A stretch of DNA of 64,000 nucleotides from positions 1,922,001 through 1,986,000 of the forward strand of contig NZ_LT629971.1 of assembly GCF_900108565.1 (NCBI RefSeq), read 5' to 3'. Source of the DNA: Mycolicibacterium rutilum. Lineage in GTDB: Bacteria > Actinomycetota > Actinomycetes > Mycobacteriales > Mycobacteriaceae. Below are positions 40,000 through 49,249 of this stretch, piece by piece; position 1 is the stretch's first letter, and every line of letters begins with the position of its first letter. The translations under genes and the position numbers were made by a program. Under the pieces are notes generated by a model. It saw only the letters and a program-made list of their open reading frames with translations, did no database searches and had not been told where the DNA came from.

Positions 40000-40067
40000 C
40001 TTGGGTCGGCGGCGGGCACTGCCGTAGACTCGTCCCGCCCGAGCCGCGCGCCAGCGTGGCAGGGCAC

Positions 40068-40140
40068 GCCACCTTAGCTCAGTCGGTAGAGCGGCTCACT
40101 CGTAATGAGCAGGTCAGGAGTTCGATTCTCCTAGGTGGCT
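40068..40140 (+). tRNA. tRNA-Thr(CGT)
   Basis: 73 nt. Acceptor GCCACCT/AGGTGGC with discriminator T, anticodon stem GCTCA/TGAGC around CTCGTAA (anticodon CGT), T-loop GTTCGATTC. CCA not encoded. A short T-run (ctcttttgg) follows. Confidence 0.95.
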
Positions 40141-40195
40141 CTCTCTTTTGGCCGCCGAGCGCACGCTTTTTCGCGGGTGTTCTCGGGTTTTGTGT

Positions 40196-41074
40196 TCAAC
40201 TTCCGTGCGCTCGGGGCAGGAATTCGCGGACCAGCGGCACCACTTCGGACAGATGCGTCTCGAGGAGCCAGTGCCCGCCGCCGAGCAGGCGCAGCGGCGC
40301 GTCGGGCACGTCGCGGTGGTAGGCCCGCGCCGAGGCCTCCGGCATGTAGCCGTCGTGGGGTCCCCACACGATCAGGGTCGGCGGCTGGTGCTCGCGCAGG
40401 TAGGCCTGCTCGTCGGGAAACCAGTTCAGGGTGGTGGGCTGGTCTTCGAGAAGGTGGATGAGGTTCGCCAGCCGCTCGGGGGTGTTCATCAGCGACCAGT
40501 GCAGCGTCCACAGGTCGGGGCTGATCCGGTCGGCGACGTCGTCGGGCAGTTCGCCGCGGAACTCGCTTTCGAACCCGGCCAGCGTGACGTGCTGGGCGAT
40601 GTGGCGCCGCGACGCGGGGCCGGGGTTGGCCCACAGTTCCTTGAGGAAGTCGTATTTGGAGCCGAACGCGTCGGCGTAGATGTCGCCGTTCTGGATGATG
40701 AGCCCGGCGACGCGCTCGGGTGCGGCCATCGCGAGCCGGAAGCCGAACTGTGAACCGTAGTCATGCAGCCAGATGACGTAGCGCCGCAAGTTCAAGGCGT
40801 CGACGAACGCCTGCAAAAACGTCGCGTACGCCTCGAAGGTGTAGCCGAAGTCATCGGGCGAAGGGGTTGCGCTGTAACCGAATCCGGGCAGATCGGGTGC
40901 GACGAGGCGCCACTGGTCGCCGAGTGCGGCCATGAGATTGCGGTAGACGTAGGACGACGCCGGGTATCCGTGCGGCAGCAAGACGACGGGGGCGTCCGGT
41001 GGTCCCGCCTGCCGGTAGAAGGTGTCGATGCCGTCGACGGTGACGCGGTGATGGGTGACCGGTGCGATGCTCAC
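40196..41074 (-). CDS. Alpha/beta hydrolase, epoxide hydrolase/haloalkane dehalogenase-like
   Basis: 292 residues. Oxyanion HGYPASSYVYRN (about 35), elbow LHDYGS with Asp as nucleophile near residue 105, DLPGFGYS after strand 4, and the acid and His of GPHDGY and GGHWLL near the end. A cap domain lies between. An Asp nucleophile points to epoxide or haloalkane hydrolysis. GTG start overlaps the CMD gene by 4 bp; last gene of a six-gene chain. Confidence 0.85.
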   Translation of the reverse strand: MSIAPVTHHRVTVDGIDTFYRQAGPPDAPVVLLPHGYPASSYVYRNLMAALGDQWRLVAPDLPGFGYSATPSPDDFGYTFEAYATFLQAFVDALNLRRYVIWLHDYGSQFGFRLAMAAPERVAGLIIQNGDIYADAFGSKYDFLKELWANPGPASRRHIAQHVTLAGFESEFRGELPDDVADRISPDLWTLHWSLMNTPERLANLIHLLEDQPTTLNWFPDEQAYLREHQPPTLIVWGPHDGYMPEASARAYHRDVPDAPLRLLGGGHWLLETHLSEVVPLVREFLPRAHGS

Positions 41075-41442
41075 TTCTCTCGCAACACCTCTTCGGCGAT
41101 TTTCATTGCGGCGGTGGCGGCGGGGAAGCCGGTGTATCCGGTGCTGTGGTAGATGACCTCGGCGATCTCGTCGTCGGTGAGCCCGTTGGTGCGAGCGATC
41201 CGGAAGTGAAGTTGAAGTTCCTCGGTCGCGCGCAGCGCGATGAGGATGCCCAGCGTGACGAGGCTGCGTTCGCGTCGGCTCAGGCCGTCGCGGGTCCAGA
41301 GCCGGCCGAACACGTTGTCCAACGCCAGCCCGAGCATTTCGCCGCCGAAACCGTCGGTGGGCAGTTCGGCGTCACCGTCCGGCAGGACGCCCGGAAGCAG
41401 TTCGCGGAATGCCTGAAGTCCTTGTTTGCGTACCTCTGTCAT
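41071..41442 (-). CDS. Carboxymuconolactone decarboxylase (CMD)-family protein
   Basis: 123 residues, the all-helical CMD fold of gamma-carboxymuconolactone decarboxylase (not the CxxC AhpD type): WTRDGLSRRERSLVTLG, ELQLHFR with conserved His, and EVIYHSTGYTGFPAA. Overlaps the lipoprotein gene upstream (ATGA) and the hydrolase downstream. Aromatic catabolism partners are not in the window, so the substrate is open. Confidence 0.85.
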   Translation of the reverse strand: MTEVRKQGLQAFRELLPGVLPDGDAELPTDGFGGEMLGLALDNVFGRLWTRDGLSRRERSLVTLGILIALRATEELQLHFRIARTNGLTDDEIAEVIYHSTGYTGFPAATAAMKIAEEVLREK

Positions 41443-42419
41443 ACCGACAGCGTGGCATGGAGCTCACGCATGCGATGCTCGTTAACCGGTGATAATGGCG
41501 AACCTATAGCCGTACTGGCGAATCGCATTACTGATGTGCTGAACGCCGCCAGGTACGCCGTCAGCTGGCTGTCATAGGCGCTCCAGCTGCCCTTGTTGAT
41601 CTGATTCGGGGAAAGCAGCCGACCCTGGCGGAAAAAGTCGGGACTGATGTACGGGTCACCGGGGCGCACTGACCGTGAGGCCACCTGATACATCACTTCG
41701 GTTTGCGCCTGCATCGGTGTCGCGACGGGTGACTCCGGATCGGCGATGTGGGCACCTGCCGCGAGGAGGCCTCTCAACCGCGCGGCACGCATCAGATCCT
41801 CCAGGGGGGCGGTGTTGCCCACAAGAGTCGGGTTCGCCGCTGCTTCTTCGGCGAAGCTGACCTCGAATGAGTGTGCGCGCTCATTGGCGGCTTCGGTGAA
41901 GATTCGGCTGGCTTCCGGATCTTTGTGAAATGCGGCGAATACTGCTGCGGTGCGCCGCATCTCAGTGTTCGAGGTGTCCAGGGCTTCGAAGCCGGAAACG
42001 CCCTGGAGGTCTCCCGCCATCGCGCCGATGTAAGGCACCAAGCTCCGGGCACAACTCCGCCAGAGGCCCGGATTTCCCGGCGTACCGGCGAGGGCATCTT
42101 TGTCATCGGCGATGAACGATGCGATAGCGTGCGCCGTCTCACCGGCACGGATCGCCGCAGCGGAATCCTCAGAGTGCGCGTCTTGCGGGATCCACGCGAA
42201 GAGTTCGCCGGCGCGGGCCCCGCCGTCGTCCCATGACGCCGCGACGATGTCCTGGAGGAAGGCCGGCCCGTCCGGGCCTGTGACCCGTTCGGCGATGGCG
42301 GCCGGGTCGGTGCTCGGTGGTAGGTCAGGCTCGCGGTTCGTCGTGCAAGCGGCGACCAAGCCGACCACGGCGACGACGACAACCAGCCAGCGAGCCGTGC
42401 GCGTATTCAGTCTGACCAT
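41439..42419 (-). CDS. ESX-linked lipoprotein paralogue 3 (divergent copy)
   Basis: 326 residues. Signal peptide with lipobox LVAAC (Cys25). Residues ~28-75 are almost identical to paralogue 2 (REPDLPPS.DPAAIAERV, AASWDDGGARAGELFAWIP), after which the sequence diverges but keeps the shared blocks NPGLWRS, EMRRTAAVFAAFHKD and YDSQLTAYL. The last ~40 residues are unlike the other copies, ending ...ELHATLSV. Predicted to be anchored outside the membrane. It follows paralogue 2 after 3 bp and overlaps the CMD gene by 4 bp. Function unknown. Confidence 0.85.
   Translation of the reverse strand: MVRLNTRTARWLVVVVAVVGLVAACTTNREPDLPPSTDPAAIAERVTGPDGPAFLQDIVAASWDDGGARAGELFAWIPQDAHSEDSAAAIRAGETAHAIASFIADDKDALAGTPGNPGLWRSCARSLVPYIGAMAGDLQGVSGFEALDTSNTEMRRTAAVFAAFHKDPEASRIFTEAANERAHSFEVSFAEEAAANPTLVGNTAPLEDLMRAARLRGLLAAGAHIADPESPVATPMQAQTEVMYQVASRSVRPGDPYISPDFFRQGRLLSPNQINKGSWSAYDSQLTAYLAAFSTSVMRFASTAIGSPLSPVNEHRMRELHATLSV
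42191..42362. repeat. Direct repeat shared by lipoprotein copies 3 and 2
   Basis: About 172 bp, matching 43139-43310 at a fixed offset of 948 bp with roughly eight substitutions and no indel. It covers the mature N-terminal region of each lipoprotein. Confidence 0.85.
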
Positions 42420-42422
42420 CCG

Positions 42423-43349
42423 TCACTGCCCGTCGGCGATCAGGCTGTAGGTGCTAGCGAACTGATCTATCGCGGCGTTGATCTGCGGCCACGGGACGAG
42501 ATAGACCCGGAGTTGGGCGCGGTAGATGCTCAGATCTTCTTCCGGTATCTCGTTGGGTGGCAACAGGCTTCCGTTTCGGAAGAACTCATCGTTGATATGC
42601 GGGTCGTCATCACGGGCAGTCAAGGACGCAACGCGATACATGACCACGGTTTCGGCGTACGTCGGGACGGGACGTGGGGCATCCGGATTTACCAGTCGAT
42701 CACCGGTCGCGACAAGGCTCCGGAGTCGAGCCGCCTGCAACAGGGCTTGTTGAGCATCCCCAGTGTCGGCTTGCAGGGGTTCGGTTACCGCTGCTTTGGC
42801 GAAGGCCTCTTCGTAGGTTTGTGCCTTGGCGTTGGCGGCGTCGGCCCAGGCGCGATCGGCCGTGCTGTCTTTCGTCATGGTGGCGAACAGCGAAGCTGTG
42901 CGGCGCATTTGAGATTCGGGACCCTCCAGCGGGGCAAAATCCGCGATTCCTTGGTCATCACCGACCAGGGCACCCTGATACGGGATCAAGCTGTCGGTGA
43001 ATGACCGCCATAGGGCGGGGTTGTCGGGGGTGTCCGTGATCGTGTCGCGTTCGTCTGCGAGGAACGCGGCGATTACATGTGCCGTCTGACCGGCGCGGGC
43101 TGCCACAGCAGGATCGTCCGAGTGAGCGTCCCGCGGTATCCACGCAAAGAGCTCGCCGGCGCGGGCCCCGCCGTCGTCCCATGACGCCGCAACGATGTCC
43201 TGGAGAAAGGCCGGCCCGTCCGGGCCTGTGACCCGTTCGGCGATAGCGGCCGGGTCGCTGCTCGGTGGTAGGTCAGGCTCGCGGTTCGTCGTGCAGGCGG
43301 CGAGCAAGCCAACCAAGGCGACGACGAAAACTGCCCAGCGGGCTGTCAC
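42423..43349 (-). CDS. ESX-linked lipoprotein paralogue 2
   Basis: 308 residues with lipobox LLAAC (Cys19). Same domain as copies 1 and 3 and as residues ~370-730 of the ESX-type substrate at the head of the operon. Shared blocks: WDDGGARAGELFAW, NPALWRSFTDSLIPYQ, QMRRTASLFATM, and DDDPHIN.EFFRNG..LPPNEI. GTG start overlaps the stop of paralogue 1 (GTGA). Predicted surface or periplasmic lipoprotein; not recognised as a named family. Confidence 0.85.
   Translation of the reverse strand: MTARWAVFVVALVGLLAACTTNREPDLPPSSDPAAIAERVTGPDGPAFLQDIVAASWDDGGARAGELFAWIPRDAHSDDPAVAARAGQTAHVIAAFLADERDTITDTPDNPALWRSFTDSLIPYQGALVGDDQGIADFAPLEGPESQMRRTASLFATMTKDSTADRAWADAANAKAQTYEEAFAKAAVTEPLQADTGDAQQALLQAARLRSLVATGDRLVNPDAPRPVPTYAETVVMYRVASLTARDDDPHINDEFFRNGSLLPPNEIPEEDLSIYRAQLRVYLVPWPQINAAIDQFASTYSLIADGQ
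42766..43175. repeat. Long direct repeat shared by lipoprotein copies 2 and 1
   Basis: 410 bp nearly identical to 43689-44098 (offset 923 bp, no indel, only a handful of substitutions), while sequence on either side is clearly more divergent. It looks like a recent gene-conversion tract. Confidence 0.9.
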
Positions 43350-44296
43350 TGGCCGAAGGCGATTCTGTTGTAGGTACGCGCGAATTGGGCTACCGCTTCG
43401 CTGATGCGCGGCCAGGGGGCAAGGTACACGGCGAGCTGGCTGTCGTAGATGCTCCAGTCAGTGTCCGGTATCTCGTTAGGCGGCAGAAGGTGTCCGTCAC
43501 GGAAGAACCCTTCATTGATATGCGGGTCGTCATCACGAGCGGTCAGGGACACTACCTGGTACATGATTCCGGTTTCACCGAGATTCGAGCTCGGCTTCGG
43601 TGACTCTGGATTCGCGAGGTAATGGCCGGTTGCGTTCAAACTTCGGAGCCGGGCTGCCCGTAGTAGGTCTCGCTGGGCGTCTCCTCTATCGGCTTGCAGG
43701 GGTTCGGCTACCGCTGCTTTGGCGAAGGCCTCTTCGTAGGTTTGTGCCTTGGCGTTGGCGGCGTCGGCCCAGGCGCGATCGGCCGTGCTGTCTTTCGTCA
43801 TGGTGGCGAACAGCGAAGCTGTGCGGCGCATTTGAGATTCGGGACCCTCCAGCGGGGCAAAACCCGCGATTCCTTGGTCATCACCGACCAGGGCACCCTG
43901 ATACGGGATCAAGCTGTCGGTGAATGACCGCCATAGGGCGGGGTTGTCGGGGGTGTCCGTGATCGTGTCGCGTTCGACTGCGAGGATCGCGGCGATTGCA
44001 TGTGCCGTCTGACCGGCGCGGGCTGCCACAGCAGGATCGCCCGAGTGAGCGTCCCGCGGTATCCACGCAAAGAGCTCGCCGGCGCGGGCCCCGCCGTCAT
44101 CCCAGGCGGCAGAGATGATTTCGCGAAGAAATCCTTGGCCGTCGGCGCCGGTGACCAGGTCAGCTATGGCCGCAGGGTCGGCGTTGGACGGCAAGTCCGG
44201 ATCCCGGTCCCGACTGCACCCCGACACGAGCCCGAAGAGCAGTAGACAGATTATGAGCGCTACACGAATTTGCGAGACGGACCCGGTGCGCTTCAC
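43346..44296 (-). CDS. ESX-linked lipoprotein paralogue 1
   Basis: 316 residues with lipobox VSGC (Cys27). Carries the same domain as the C-terminus of the substrate upstream: VTGADGQGFLREI, AAWDDGGARAGELFAW, LWRSFTDSLIPYQ, DPHINEGFFRDG..LPPNEI and SIYDSQLAVYLAPWPRI line up with LTGARGDDGQDFMMD, HEWNDDGKAAGGLFEW, LVKAFSNGLMPYQ, NPHIEDRFFDDEG and SIYDAQLTAAMAEHPRI there. GTG start overlaps the substrate stop by 4 bp. Confidence 0.85.
   Translation of the reverse strand: MKRTGSVSQIRVALIICLLLFGLVSGCSRDRDPDLPSNADPAAIADLVTGADGQGFLREIISAAWDDGGARAGELFAWIPRDAHSGDPAVAARAGQTAHAIAAILAVERDTITDTPDNPALWRSFTDSLIPYQGALVGDDQGIAGFAPLEGPESQMRRTASLFATMTKDSTADRAWADAANAKAQTYEEAFAKAAVAEPLQADRGDAQRDLLRAARLRSLNATGHYLANPESPKPSSNLGETGIMYQVVSLTARDDDPHINEGFFRDGHLLPPNEIPDTDWSIYDSQLAVYLAPWPRISEAVAQFARTYNRIAFGQ
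43689..44098. repeat. Long direct repeat, copy in paralogue 1
   Basis: Partner of 42766-43175 (see that entry). It encodes the stretch from the DDGGARAGELF block through the middle helices. Confidence 0.9.
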
Positions 44297-46485
44297 TCTT
44301 CGTACCCACCTGCTTGTCCGAGACTGGTGTTGAATCGCAGCATCATCGCCAAAATCCGCGGGTGCTCGGCCATTGCGGCTGTCAGCTGCGCGTCATAGAT
44401 GCTGATATCGGCGGTGCTGATGTCTTTCGGTGGCTTCAGGTTGCCTTCATCGTCAAAGAAGCGATCCTCAATATGAGGATTGCCTGCGCTGACGAACTGC
44501 GACGCAATGGTGTACTGCGCTTGTGTGTACTGGTGAGCGATCGATTGCTGGCTCGATGTTAGGCCGACGTCGGTGATGGCGCCGTCCCTGTCGAACTTGA
44601 TGTCGCCCGTGTCGGGCGGATCTCCGGCGAATGAATCGGCAAGTGCGTTGGTTACCAGGTCGCCTCCCGGAGCGTACGAGAAGACGCTGCGGAGAAGGTC
44701 CTTCTTGAGATCGTAAGCAGACCGCGCGTTCTCGGCTGCCTGGTCGGCATTCATCTCGCCGTTGCGAATATTCGACAGAGTCTCTTGACTGATACCACCG
44801 TCAATGACGCCCAGCATTCGGGCAGAAGCCTCAAGGTCGTCGACCCGGACGTCTCCCTTCGGAATGTTGGGGTTCTCTTTTGCGTAGTCAGCGAAGGATC
44901 GCTGTAGGTCCAATGCTTCTTGGTATGCCGCTCGGTTCCATTCCTTCGCCGCATCGGGCTGCGAGTCGATAACAGCGAATAGTCCTTTGGTTTTGTCCAT
45001 CGAGCCATGGAGGTCGTCGATCCGCTGGAAGGCCGTGTCGACCGAGGGCTGATCGGTGATCAACTCCTCCTGGTACGGCATCAGACCGTTGGAGAACGCT
45101 TTCACCAGTTCGGGGTTCATGTCGCCGATCTGACGGTTGCCGTCGATCGCCAGCAGGTCGTCGCTCTCGCGTCCCAGGAACTCCGCGTAGACGTTGGCGG
45201 TTTCGGCGGCGAACGGGCTCGTCGCGTCCTTCGTCCATTCGAACAGGCCGCCGGCGGCCTTGCCGTCGTCGTTCCACTCGTGGGTGCTGACATCCATCAT
45301 GAAGTCCTGGCCGTCGTCGCCGCGCGCGCCGGTGAGGTGGTCGTGGACGATTTCGTGATCACGGCCCGCTGAGTCGAAGATGTCCTGCAGAACGACGTCG
45401 TACTGCGGCCGCGACCCGTCGCCCGGCTGGCCGGTGCTCTTCTCGAACATCGGCGCGTCCATCATGCGGTCCGCCTTGCGCATCATCTCGCGATCGATCT
45501 CGGTGCCGGTCTGGAACTTCGCGTCGCCGTCCTTGACGATGGCCGCGATGTCCGACATCTGCCGGTCGGAGAACAATCCCGAAGACTTGATCGCGTCCTG
45601 CACGCTTTGCGGCAGGTTCTCGAACTTCCTGTCGCCCGAGGCGACTTCGCCGGTCTCGGCATCTGGGAAGTCGATGTCTTCGTTGGTCATCAACTGCCAC
45701 GAGTCACCGATGATCCGGCCGTGCTCCCCCAGCCGATCCTCGGCGGCTTTGAGGTCCTTGACGCTCATGCCCTTCTGCTGCGTCTGCATCTGGCTCAGAT
45801 ACGCGCTCTGCGCCGGTGACAGCGGTGTCGCGCCGGACATCTGGTCGGGTGTGATGCTGTCCAGCACGGACTGCACCCGGCCCGCGGCGTCCTTGTCGCC
45901 CTCCTTGAGCGCCTTCTCGACATCCTCCTCGGCCCGCTTCTTGATGTCTTCGGCGGCCTTGTCGTCGAGGACGTCGCCACCGCCGGCGAACTTCTGGTTG
46001 CCGAGCGCCTCGAACTCGCCTTTGAGCGCTCGGATGCGTTCGGCGGTGACATTCGACTCGGTGTTGGACTGCGTCATGATCTCCTGCAGCTGGGCCAGGC
46101 CCTTCTGCGCGATCACCATGCGGATGGTCTCGGCATTCTTGCCGGGCGGGACGCTGTTGGCAGCGTCGATCACCCAGGTGCGCAGCGCCTCGAGGTTGCG
46201 CCTGCCCGCGTCGACCGACCGCGCAGAGTTGTCGACCTCGGCGGTCAGACGCCGATCCAGGTCGGCCAGTGCACCGATCACTCGACGGTGTTCGGTGTTG
46301 ACGGCGCCGTAGTTGTCGGCCGCGCTGCCGGTCCACCGCGAGCCCGGTGCGGCGGCCTCCAAGTCGGTGGCCAGCGTGGTCAGCCGGCTGCTGTTGTCGT
46401 ACTGTTCGCCGGTCTGGGGGGTGCCTTCGCCATACGTCTGGCGCGCGCCGGACCACGTCGTGAGGAATGCGTCGATCGAACCCAC
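44293..46485 (-). CDS. EspA/EspE-type ESX substrate with TPR-like region (large head protein)
   Basis: 730 residues, no signal peptide, from a GTG at 46485. The first ~150 residues are an ESX-type helical hairpin with W51-T-G53 at the turn, like EspA/EspE- and Rv0026-type proteins annotated as 'TPR repeat region-containing'. Residues ~150-370 are highly charged and helical. Residues ~370-730 are homologous to the three lipoproteins downstream. Acidic overall. It is the first gene of the chain and is translationally coupled to paralogue 1. Likely exported by ESX; activity unknown. Another possibility is a structural ESX accessory rather than a toxin. Confidence 0.75.
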   Translation of the reverse strand: MGSIDAFLTTWSGARQTYGEGTPQTGEQYDNSSRLTTLATDLEAAAPGSRWTGSAADNYGAVNTEHRRVIGALADLDRRLTAEVDNSARSVDAGRRNLEALRTWVIDAANSVPPGKNAETIRMVIAQKGLAQLQEIMTQSNTESNVTAERIRALKGEFEALGNQKFAGGGDVLDDKAAEDIKKRAEEDVEKALKEGDKDAAGRVQSVLDSITPDQMSGATPLSPAQSAYLSQMQTQQKGMSVKDLKAAEDRLGEHGRIIGDSWQLMTNEDIDFPDAETGEVASGDRKFENLPQSVQDAIKSSGLFSDRQMSDIAAIVKDGDAKFQTGTEIDREMMRKADRMMDAPMFEKSTGQPGDGSRPQYDVVLQDIFDSAGRDHEIVHDHLTGARGDDGQDFMMDVSTHEWNDDGKAAGGLFEWTKDATSPFAAETANVYAEFLGRESDDLLAIDGNRQIGDMNPELVKAFSNGLMPYQEELITDQPSVDTAFQRIDDLHGSMDKTKGLFAVIDSQPDAAKEWNRAAYQEALDLQRSFADYAKENPNIPKGDVRVDDLEASARMLGVIDGGISQETLSNIRNGEMNADQAAENARSAYDLKKDLLRSVFSYAPGGDLVTNALADSFAGDPPDTGDIKFDRDGAITDVGLTSSQQSIAHQYTQAQYTIASQFVSAGNPHIEDRFFDDEGNLKPPKDISTADISIYDAQLTAAMAEHPRILAMMLRFNTSLGQAGGYEE

Positions 46486-46509: not shown

Positions 46510-48228
46510 CTACCTCGGTGCCACAAATCCGACCGGCCCCGACGCGATGCACACCGACAGCGCAGCGGTGTTCGCCGCGACCGTGATCGCGTCACCGGCA
46601 CCGGGTAGCCGGACGAACACCCGGTTCAGTCCCGGCCGCACCGGCACCTTGACCTCCGGTCCCTCCGACAGTGCCATCGTCATCGACCCGTCGCTGTTGG
46701 CCAGATAGTTGATCTCGGCGGTCCAGTCGGCAGGCAACAACGGACCGTCGAGCGGCATCCGCACCGGCGCATCGGGCTGGACCAGGTATCCGCAGTTCGG
46801 TGCCGGTCCCGGCGTGATGCTGCGTACCCAGGTGACCTTCGCGTCCACCACCCGACCTGCACTGTCGAGCATGCGCAGGTTCGTTGTCGCCGAGGCGAAT
46901 TCGGGTCGCTCCCGAACCAATGCGAACATGTGGCTGGCGCGGTTCTCCGGCCCCACCACCCGCTGCAAGACCATCGGGTCCACTTCCTGGTCGAGCATCG
47001 GCTCATCGGATTCCCGTGCGGCCGCGGCCAATCCGGCGACTGCGTGCTGCAGATACGGCTGCGCCGGGTTGTAGCGCCAACTGGTCAGGAAGGTCGCCGT
47101 CGAATACAGGCTGCTCGCGACGAACGCCGTCACCGCGACACCCACCGCGACCGTGCGCGCCCGCGACGCGTCCAGACACCGCGCGCGCTCCCGGTTCGGC
47201 GCGCACAGGCCCACCGCCGCCAACAATGCCAACACCACGACCAGATCCGGCAGATAGCGCAACGTCTGCGCCAGTTCGAGCGCGGTGAACCGCGACGACC
47301 GCATCAGATAGATCGGGATCTGGCACGCCACCGCATACCCGACCGCGACCGCCCACACCGCCGCGATCCGCTGCTTGCGCAGCACCGTCACCACGACCAC
47401 CGCCGCCAGCACCAGCCAGCCCAACACCATCACCGCGACCGGCGGCGTCCCCCACGGCGACGCCGGCGCCCACCGCTGCCACTCCCACGGGCCGCCGACA
47501 AGACCGGGCACGATGCCGTGCGTGATCGACCGTGCCAGCAGGTCGGTCGTCATCGCGATATCGAAGCTCCACCGCTTCTGGTCGACGACGGCCAGGTACA
47601 CCGCGACCCATGCCGCGGTGATCGCCAGCGCCGGCACCCACAACCGAATGCCCCTGCGCCACACCGACGCCGTCGACCACGCACCCGTCACGTGCCCGAG
47701 CAGCGCCACCACCGCGAACGCGACGAACGGGATCACCGCAGCCTTCTCGAAGAACAGCAACCCACCCAGGTAGACGACGAGGCCGGTGACCGCGTAGCGA
47801 CGGTTTCCGGTGCGCTGCAACAGGACCGCGTCGCCGCACACCCAGGCCAGCGCGGCCAGCATCGGCAGCGAGTTCAGTGCCGCGGCCCACCAGGCGAACC
47901 CCGGCACCGCCAGCGGCGTGAACAACGCAAACGTCAACGGCACCAACAACACCGGGCGCCAACCGAGGATCACGTGCAGCGCGCGCAACAGCGCCAGCGA
48001 CGCCAGCACCTGCAACACCAGCATGCTGATCGCCGCACCCGCCCAGTTCAGCGGCGCCAACCGGGTGATGCCGCCGGCGACGAGGAACGCCGCGGGCATG
48101 ACGTGACCGTCGTGATCGTCGAACAGGTACGCCGGCGACAGCAGGCTTTGTGTGCCCGCGCGCCCGATCAGGATCAGGTCGTCCCAGTAGAAGTAGCCGC
48201 CGAACGCCAGCACGGCGCGCACCGCCAA
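46510..48228 (-). CDS. Large polytopic membrane protein (Rv3635-like)
   Basis: At least 572 residues, with about ten transmembrane helices and a C-terminal extracytoplasmic beta-rich domain of about 190 residues. An early loop has a GGYFYWDDLILIGRAG motif with DD after the first helix, as in GT-C glycosyltransferases. That suggests a polyprenyl-sugar-using transferase for the envelope. The start is unclear: the frame is open to 48423 inside galE, and conserved residues begin around 48270, but the first usual codon is a TTG at 48228 inside the first helix. Sits directly after galE. Confidence 0.7.
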   Translation of the reverse strand: MAVRAVLAFGGYFYWDDLILIGRAGTQSLLSPAYLFDDHDGHVMPAAFLVAGGITRLAPLNWAGAAISMLVLQVLASLALLRALHVILGWRPVLLVPLTFALFTPLAVPGFAWWAAALNSLPMLAALAWVCGDAVLLQRTGNRRYAVTGLVVYLGGLLFFEKAAVIPFVAFAVVALLGHVTGAWSTASVWRRGIRLWVPALAITAAWVAVYLAVVDQKRWSFDIAMTTDLLARSITHGIVPGLVGGPWEWQRWAPASPWGTPPVAVMVLGWLVLAAVVVVTVLRKQRIAAVWAVAVGYAVACQIPIYLMRSSRFTALELAQTLRYLPDLVVVLALLAAVGLCAPNRERARCLDASRARTVAVGVAVTAFVASSLYSTATFLTSWRYNPAQPYLQHAVAGLAAAARESDEPMLDQEVDPMVLQRVVGPENRASHMFALVRERPEFASATTNLRMLDSAGRVVDAKVTWVRSITPGPAPNCGYLVQPDAPVRMPLDGPLLPADWTAEINYLANSDGSMTMALSEGPEVKVPVRPGLNRVFVRLPGAGDAITVAANTAALSVCIASGPVGFVAPR

Positions 48229-48271
48229 CTGCGCGACGATCAGCGCTGCGGCGGTGCGGGCGACCCAGGAC

Positions 48272-49249
48272 TTACCGCGGATACGCGTCCCCCGCTTGCC
48301 GGCGCGCGGTCCACGCCGACCGCACCATCTCCTCCAGCGAATGCCGCATCTGCCAGTCGAGGTCGCGGGCGGCCAGATCCCCGGAGGCGACGATCCGCGC
48401 GGGGTCGCCAGGCCTGCGCGCACCGATCTGAGGTTCGAAGTCGAAGCCGGTGACGTCGCGGATCGTCGTCATGATCTCGCGCACCGAGGTGCCGCTGCCG
48501 CTGCCGAGGTTGTACACGGGCTCGAGTGCCTCGCCGGCGTCGAGGCGCCGCGCGGCCGCGACATGCGCCAACGCCAGGTCCGCCACGTGCACGTAGTCCC
48601 GCACGCAGGTGCCGTCGGGGGTCGCGTAGTCGGCGCCGTTGATGCGCGGTGTCTCCCCGCGGCACAGCATGTCGAACACGACCGGGAACAGGTTGTGCGG
48701 ACTGACGTCGAACAACTCGGCCGAACCCGACCCCACCACGTTGAAGTACCGCAGGCTGGTGTGACGCAGCCCGGACGCCCTGCCGGCGTCGCGGATCATC
48801 CACTCGCCGATCAATTTGCTCACCCCGTAAGGGGATTCGGGGTTCGTCGGGGTCTGCTCGGTGACCAGGTCGACGTCGGGCGTGCCGTACGTCGCCGCGC
48901 TCGACGAGAACACCAGCTTGTCCGCGCCCGCGCCGTCCATCGCTTTGAGCAGCGTGACCATCGCCGAGACGTTCTGCTCGTAGGTGTGCAGGGGCCGCTG
49001 CACCGAGACGCCCGCGTACTTGAAGCCCGCGATGTGGATGACGCCGGAAACCTCGTGCTCGGCGAGCGTGCGGGCGACGAGGTCGCCGTCGAGCAGGGTG
49101 CCGCGCACCAGCGGCACCGTGGGCGGCACGAACTTCTCCAGCCCGGTGGACAGGTCGTCGAGCACCACGACCGGCACCCCGGCGTCCGACAACGCGCGCA
49201 CGACGTGCGACCCGATGTATCCGGCGCCGCCGGTCACCAGCCAACTCAT
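48272..49249 (-). CDS. galE: UDP-glucose 4-epimerase family (GalE)
   Basis: 325 residues from an ATG with agggggat upstream. Extended SDR: NAD-binding GGAGYIGSH (about 7-15), Ser of SSSAATYG and catalytic YGVSK (about 140), then a substrate-binding region with RYFNVVGS. Interconverts UDP-glucose and UDP-galactose or related sugars. Between a flippase-like gene and a GT-C-like gene, so probably part of a glycan pathway. Confidence 0.88.
   Translation of the reverse strand: MSWLVTGGAGYIGSHVVRALSDAGVPVVVLDDLSTGLEKFVPPTVPLVRGTLLDGDLVARTLAEHEVSGVIHIAGFKYAGVSVQRPLHTYEQNVSAMVTLLKAMDGAGADKLVFSSSAATYGTPDVDLVTEQTPTNPESPYGVSKLIGEWMIRDAGRASGLRHTSLRYFNVVGSGSAELFDVSPHNLFPVVFDMLCRGETPRINGADYATPDGTCVRDYVHVADLALAHVAAARRLDAGEALEPVYNLGSGSGTSVREIMTTIRDVTGFDFEPQIGARRPGDPARIVASGDLAARDLDWQMRHSLEEMVRSAWTARRQAGDAYPR

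Follow-up and report, generated by a model that had tools for sequence, protein, structure and literature searches.

A predicted ESX effector followed by three lipoprotein copies of its own C-terminal domain: possible self-derived immunity in Mycolicibacterium rutilum

A minus-strand gene chain in Mycolicibacterium rutilum encodes a predicted effector of an ESX (type VII) secretion system followed by three predicted lipoproteins, here called A, B and C. It lies at positions 41439-46485 of a 64,000-nucleotide stretch (positions 1,922,001 to 1,986,000 of contig NZ_LT629971.1; the whole stretch is hereafter the window). The predicted lipoproteins are copies of the effector's own C-terminal domain lacking one insert of about 70 residues, and we propose, at somewhat short of even chances, that they are immunity proteins derived from the effector itself. 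The chain is tightly coupled: the substrate gene overlaps A by 4 nucleotides (nt) and A overlaps B by 4 nt, B and C are separated by 3 nt, and C overlaps the downstream gene (41071-41442) by 4 nt. Its main features are the following.

44293..46485, minus strand: predicted ESX (type VII) effector/substrate, 730 amino acids (aa), with PF18879 EspA_EspE, PF23275 TPR_23 and an AlphaFold2 (AF2) model
46189..46431, minus strand: EspA_EspE N-terminal targeting module, residues 19-99 (Pfam; W51-x-G53)
45235..45861, minus strand: TPR_23 region, residues 209-417 (Pfam PF23275, 181 bits)
44791..45360, minus strand: C-terminal domain core 1, residues 376-565, common to A, B and C (BLASTP)
44527..44790, minus strand: insert, residues 566-653 (anchor-to-anchor length 88; the lipoproteins lack about 72 of these)
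44296..44526, minus strand: C-terminal domain core 2, residues 654-730, common to the lipoproteins (BLASTP)
43346..44296, minus strand: lipoprotein A, 316 aa, lipobox VSGC27, insert-free copy of the substrate C-terminal domain (open reading frame (ORF), BLASTP)
42423..43349, minus strand: lipoprotein B, 308 aa, lipobox LAAC19, mosaic (BLASTP, lipobox pattern, block identities)
41439..42419, minus strand: lipoprotein C, 326 aa, lipobox VAAC25 (ORF, BLASTP, lipobox pattern)

The earlier note on this DNA had described a 730-aa EspA/EspE-type protein followed by three coupled lipoproteins, and ORFs, spacing, lipoboxes and Pfam matches all agree with that description. The substrate matches EspA_EspE with 82.5 bits (cut-off 27), the WxG turn of its helical hairpin being W51-T-G53, and its AF2 model is mainly helical (mean predicted local distance difference test score, pLDDT, 83.4); the model of lipoprotein A is essentially all-helical (mean pLDDT 93.6). 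Lipobox cysteines were placed by pattern at C27 in A, C19 in B and C25 in C.

Each lipoprotein aligns by BLASTP with substrate residues ~376-564 and ~654-720, with E-values of 1e-20 (residues 389-564) and 1e-7 (654-706) for C, 3e-13 and 2e-9 for B, and 5e-13 and 1e-9 for A; among themselves the three are 51-76% identical. When the substrate C-terminus was compared with A, B and C, the real proteins scored 73.9, 73.2 and 85.5 bits versus 25.8, 30.8 and 30.8 for the best of 500 shuffles of each lipoprotein, its first 30 residues removed. At E<=1 a Pfam scan lists just TPR_23 for all three lipoproteins, and they match only the last ~45 positions of that model (A 27.7 bits, cut-off 27; B and C 24.2 bits, sub-threshold), which suggests that TPR_23 runs into the start of the domain copied in the lipoproteins. 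The profile comparison, which could have revealed unrelated proteins, favoured the homology claimed in the earlier note. That claim had covered substrate residues ~370-730 as a whole: the relationship holds, its continuity does not, for the lipoproteins have next to nothing that corresponds to residues ~566-653. Across 24 orthologous substrates, core 1 is the best-conserved region (mean identity 0.73), with the lowest value, 0.55, shared by core 2 and the coil.

The missing part is well delimited. Between two conserved anchors lie 60-102 residues in the 142 scored substrates (of 150), versus 10-18 in 98 of the 99 scored lipoproteins (of 100), the exception being a Nocardia protein with 61; in the window's own genes the interval is 88 in the substrate and about 16 in the lipoproteins. 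The lipoproteins are therefore the exported domain minus a single Gly/Pro-rich insert of ~70 residues, the Nocardia copy excepted. By their last 200 residues, 97 of the 99 scored lipoproteins and 136 of the 142 scored substrates are distinct; lipoprotein P0079 and substrates L049, L050, L051, L110, P0113, P0130, P0133 and P0147 were left unscored, the L rows among them showing the insert in the alignment. A segment rich in Gly and Pro, for example PGVGxxxGPxV, is frequent in the insert, whose Gly+Pro fraction is 0.179 versus 0.120 in the preceding stretch. That nearly all copies lack the insert suggests that it is what an antidote ought not to carry; given the Nocardia copy, this would not be a strict rule.

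Lipoprotein B is a recombinant of a C-like, an A-like and a third-allele block.

43170..43349, minus strand: B block like C, residues 1-60 (54/60 identical to C, 29/60 to A)
42795..43169, minus strand: B block like A, residues 61-185 (120/125 identical to A, 69/125 to C)
42426..42794, minus strand: B block like a third allele, residues 186-308 (100/123 identical to P0008, 96/123 to P0002; A 82/123, C 45/120)

In DNA, B and C are 0.82-0.96 identical over the first three 30-codon windows, and A and B are 0.96-1.00 identical over alignment columns 80-190, where identical residues use identical codons.

The gene order seen in the earlier note recurs in other genomes. Loci were gathered by lipoprotein queries, most of them read out to ~19 kb, and in 27 of the 44 that contain a substrate, the distance from the substrate stop to a lipoprotein start is -8 to +14 nt. 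A 4-nt overlap is seen in 19 of the 27, in a scan that preferred, among lipobox-giving starts, the one nearest to such an overlap. Behind 343 other genes of these loci the same scan found a single case (6 in a wider range of -60 to +170). The coupled lipoproteins comprise 12 domain copies (class I) and 15 members of a second family (class II), and no locus has both in the coupled slot. All 12 coupled domain copies have open frames and kept lipoboxes, and the number of domain copies varies from 1 to 3 per locus. Genome-sampling tallies, with the own genome counted, were 35/98, 21/298 and 5/148; as they come from sampled genomes with limited candidates scored (<=7 each in the 21/298 search), they are not frequencies. 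The substrate set used 120 of the 218 substrates found, and L047 (the same place as L015) was dropped as a duplicate. In loci from a different family of the same order (L100:6960-8538, L102:10497-12078), two tandem proteins, each bearing a single N-terminal membrane segment, come after related substrates.

Members of the second family are ~260-320 aa long and carry a WTAEPGIDL-like motif (e.g., L056, L057, L059, L061, L109, L113, L115 and L116); two members examined had no match in a Pfam scan. A hidden Markov model (HMM) was built from eight of the 15, which hence match it by construction, and the remaining seven match at E 6e-15 or better. That these proteins might be distant domain copies was rejected at an hhalign probability of 0.1-2.7% for four members (L056, L057, L059, L061) against both profiles. 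The family is sometimes tandem (L112).

At the other end of the substrate, N-terminal targeting modules are exchangeable over one C-terminal domain. In the 25 of 44 substrates that were scanned, TPR_23 was found in all 25, EspA_EspE in 8 and Hydro_N_hd in 3 (both above cut-off); the rest had only sub-threshold WXG100- or PPE-like matches (4) or no named module (10).

By its phylogeny, the domain turned into a predicted lipoprotein at least twice. The tree was built from 47 domain sequences, 17 lipoproteins included, without the insert, and 14 of the 44 substrates were left out of the alignment for having no W-x-D-x-G motif or no domain match. A single clade for all 17 lipoproteins was rejected by an approximately unbiased (AU) test carried out after the tree had been seen (p 9e-8), and the Nocardia lipoprotein, Lp_L017, is sister to its own substrate (support 98/91), which together give at least two births; the other 16 copies, all mycobacterial, group together at 67/87, which is not firm. 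Partners have also changed behind related substrates. On the best tree of all 44 substrates, in which four long branches are flagged (L112, L106, L110, L103), the two partner classes need 4 switches, and the starred branches force at least 3 changes between the copy class and all others. The clearest case is the L054 substrate, which groups at 100/100 with those of L013 and L015, loci that have domain copies; L054 has a second-family lipoprotein in the coupled slot and a domain-copy fragment downstream. In one further protein, P0035, an EspA_EspE start has been naturally fused to a whole lipoprotein, whose signal peptide is now internal. As a separate observation, locus L016 (7837-10981) has two tandem domain-copy lipoproteins and no full substrate in the fetched stretch; they follow a protein of 134 aa that is similar to substrate N-termini in its first 50 residues and has a Gly-rich, hydrophobic tail, with a weak, sub-cut-off DUF6861 match.

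The window's own chromosomal site is bounded by the following features.

46510..48423, minus strand: gene of a 637-aa protein without Pfam match, upstream flank, ending 24 nt before the substrate start
41071..41442, minus strand: carboxymuconolactone decarboxylase (CMD)-family gene, flank of the common chromosomal site
40196..41074, minus strand: alpha/beta hydrolase gene, flank of the common chromosomal site
40068..40141, plus strand: tRNA-Thr (cgt), far edge of the chromosomal site

The same site was recognised at 14 of 47 loci, the criterion being a homologue of the 637-aa protein together with one or more of the CMD, hydrolase, polymerase delta' and cyclase genes. Six of these have domain copies, five have the second family, two have substrate remnants (L010, L014), and in one the scan gave no lipoprotein. 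L010 retains just 187 aa of the substrate, its EspA_EspE part, and the lipoprotein frame there stays open over 319 aa; in L014 the lipoprotein is split into two frames. At this site, in two species, two more small lipoprotein families (145-173 aa) stand beside the domain-copy lipoprotein (L010:10883-11931, L014:10897-12439). In the window (40001-46000), the cassette has a G+C content of 62-65%, versus ~70% around it, and the tRNA-Thr gene adjoins.

How might such a system work? The EspA/EspE module would target the 730-aa protein for ESX-1-type export, to judge from the family match and from the genome's EccC-type ATPases, two of whose frames, 758 and 595 aa long, adjoin each other at 1480652-1483250 and are taken here to be of the split ESX-1 type. 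The C-terminal domain, presumably working through the insert, would act on sister cells or neighbours, at the outer face of their membranes. The lipoproteins bear a visible lipobox and are predicted to sit at the outer face of the inner membrane, where these insert-free forms may pair with the incoming effector and lock it in an inactive complex, in the way that a phage antiholin, itself a modified holin, blocks the hole. In phage antiholins and wtf poison-antidote genes alike the antidote is an altered poison that acts by co-assembly; the likeness is one of mechanism only, as those are neither type VII nor lipoproteins. Finally, three unlike copies, one of them recombinant, could widen the range of effector alleles that a cell tolerates.

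The strongest argument for immunity, in our judgement, is the exchange of two lipoprotein families in one slot: families that swap behind one effector family would be expected of interchangeable antidotes, and less so of structural subunits. Further points in its favour are the homology within one operon, the insert contrast, the two or more births, the variable N-terminal modules, the recombination in B, the L010 lipoprotein frame kept behind a reduced substrate, and the EccC-type frames. The idea of the earlier note that the lipoproteins act as immunity proteins or decoys stands as a predicted function; the note did not have the common lack of the insert, the swapping with a second lipoprotein family, the independent origin in Nocardia or the mosaic make-up of B. 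A broader version of it, which we hold more doubtfully and rate clearly below even chances, is that actinobacteria have at least twice converted a type VII effector's C-terminal domain into an immunity protein against that effector by adding a lipoprotein signal, in mycobacteria also by removing the insert. Tethered blank subunits would trap the effector. A new class of effectors would be defined, with the insert as the part that does the work, and the domain copies and the second family would be competitors for one exchangeable antidote slot. If this is true, a mycobacterial ESX substrate family becomes a family of antibacterial effectors, the insert is singled out as a candidate activity segment, and nature has run an experiment on the origin of antidotes, born at least twice from the effector itself.

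Several observations weigh against immunity. Neither Pfam, NCBIfam nor PADLOC scans found a known toxin domain or family, and with no recognisable C-terminal toxin family we do not file the substrate as a member of the polymorphic toxins, only as possibly working like one. A Foldseek comparison of A and of the substrate, a kind of check proposed in the earlier note, gave no significant match to a solved fold (best E 0.26 for A and 0.0048 for the substrate; none <=0.001). The insert is mildly hydrophobic (0.66 in the window, substrate mean 0.87, versus 0.57 in the 180 residues before it); a membrane helix usually reaches ~1.6, a value exceeded by at most 2 of 142 inserts. GxxxG occurs in 84 of 142 inserts; equally long stretches just before them have it in 58 of 142 cases. 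A pore helix was considered for the Gly/Pro richness of the insert in many substrates (e.g., PGVGxxxGP). As the hydrophobicity is modest overall and falls to 0.38-0.66 in the group to which the window belongs (L012, L048 and the window), we dropped that idea and left the insert as a putative working part. The Nocardia lipoprotein keeps 61 residues, 26 fewer than the 87 of its substrate, and its best 19-residue hydrophobicity of 0.87 is not below the 0.73 of that substrate, which does not bear out a convergent loss of the insert there; judged by eye, the Gly-rich stretch LATGTGLGAGANPLIAEGF of the Nocardia substrate has no aligned counterpart in its lipoprotein. Clean loss of the insert is hence a feature of the other copies and was not repeated in Nocardia, and the want of a second loss of its hydrophobic part lowers the odds both of immunity and of an antidote made from the weapon. 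In addition, 17 of the 44 substrate loci have no lipoprotein by the scan; among these, L110 has one by eye, and the neighbour in L097 and L100-L102 has a membrane segment or a signal-like stretch at its N-terminus. As the loci were gathered with lipoprotein queries, class I is over-represented among them; the second family was not selected for. Lastly, substrate residues 41-200 hold no [YFHW]xxx[DE] signal, the partner protein not having been searched for; in some pairs the Yxxx[DE] export signal after the hairpin is supplied by such a partner.

The domain homology would suit like-with-like assembly, and it is conceivable, if somewhat unlikely, that substrate and lipoproteins build one envelope structure (an adhesin, channel or scaffold), the exported protein docking on lipid-anchored subunits of like fold with nothing toxic involved. 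A long domain, helical in the models, fits such a structure, and lipoprotein and substrate clades diverge roughly in parallel. The alternation of the second family with the copies in the same coupled slot is harder to reconcile with it, as are the open lipoprotein frame of L010 despite a substrate cut to 187 aa and the make-up of B from unlike alleles. Variation in the C-terminal parts of both partners, and the mosaic B, could instead serve kin recognition, the lipoproteins of a partner cell reading a polymorphic export and, for example, gating conjugal transfer. Msmeg0070, an ESX-1-linked kin recognition gene in M. smegmatis (PMC9040860), provides a precedent, being ESX-1-linked and polymorphic in environmental mycobacteria; yet its product, as far as the accessible account goes, has 388 residues, is proline-rich with a predicted transmembrane segment and is reported without similarity to other proteins, so by that account it is not of this family. 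A cell with several unlike lipoproteins also looks more like the bearer of a tolerance array than of a single identity tag, and we consider kin recognition improbable. The tight coupling of the lipoprotein genes directly after the substrate might also mean that they are lipid-anchored receptors or chaperones that take the substrate past the membrane, which strikes us as highly improbable with 17 of 44 substrates lacking a coupled lipoprotein in the scan, two families in the slot and a mosaic array. Functionless by-products of tandem duplication, to which the near-identical block shared by the recombinant B with A and the fragments in L014, L015 and L054 might point, are scarcely credible when 98 of 99 scored lipoproteins, even deeply diverged ones, are insert-free, the 12 coupled copies keep open frames and lipoboxes, and the arrangement was born at least twice.

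Type VII effector-immunity pairs are best known from firmicutes. The closest parallel to the proposed immunity is the Staphylococcus aureus type VII lipase toxin TslA with its lipoprotein immunity partner TilA and DUF576 arrays (PMC10730906): in both cases an effector exported by a type VII system is paired with a lipoprotein on the outer side of the membrane, and the lipoproteins form tandem, variable arrays. In the accessible text, however, TilA is not described as a copy of the toxin domain, and a lipase domain is known in TslA; A, B and C had no DUF576 match in the Pfam scan (E<=1). Intragenic recombination is reported for the EsaG and TipC immunity arrays, and TipC carries a predicted lipoprotein signal (PMC9484751). 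As here, those arrays are tandem, non-identical genes reshaped in this way; unlike here, they belong to the firmicute type VII secretion system b (T7SSb), and the portions of the source at hand do not describe the immunity genes as derived from a toxin domain. The type VII effector EsxX with ExiAB and ExiCD (PMC12744356) offers a Gly-rich membrane segment and two unlike immunity families for one toxin. By the available part of that report, ExiAB and ExiCD act in different compartments, whereas here two families appear to swap in one slot and the insert is only mildly hydrophobic. The C-terminal domain of EspK and of Rv3899c, Rv0029 and Rv2082 (PMC9811218) is likewise mycobacterial, ESX-linked and conserved, yet it is described, in what is accessible, as an alpha/beta/alpha sandwich with a helix bundle, in contrast to the essentially all-helical models here; kinship, though possible, is not supported by the predicted secondary structure, and PDB sequence and fold searches listed no EspK/Rv3899c-type entry.

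The earlier note had known of no described system of this design. Keyword searches of the literature, from which subscription papers largely fell outside, returned no report of immunity copied from an effector domain or of this mycobacterial family; lipoprotein immunity as such is already known in type VII systems, as the accessible accounts of TilA and TipC attest. What appears new, on sequence grounds, is a lipoprotein partner derived from the exported domain itself.

As to a mobile-element origin, no phage match was found for A and no plasmid match for the substrate, and there was one plasmid match for A. This relative lies on the 434-kb mobilizable (MOBF) plasmid pJCM18538 of M. arabiense (NZ_AP022592.1; L127:7983-8932), and the match falls into two pieces, the annotated coding sequence spanning the first part only. 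Within the M. rutilum genome itself, a TPR_23 search listed only the window's four proteins, and three more EspA_EspE proteins lie elsewhere (2100357-2100602, 2222913-2223158 and 255480-255722), in frames of 452-479 aa.

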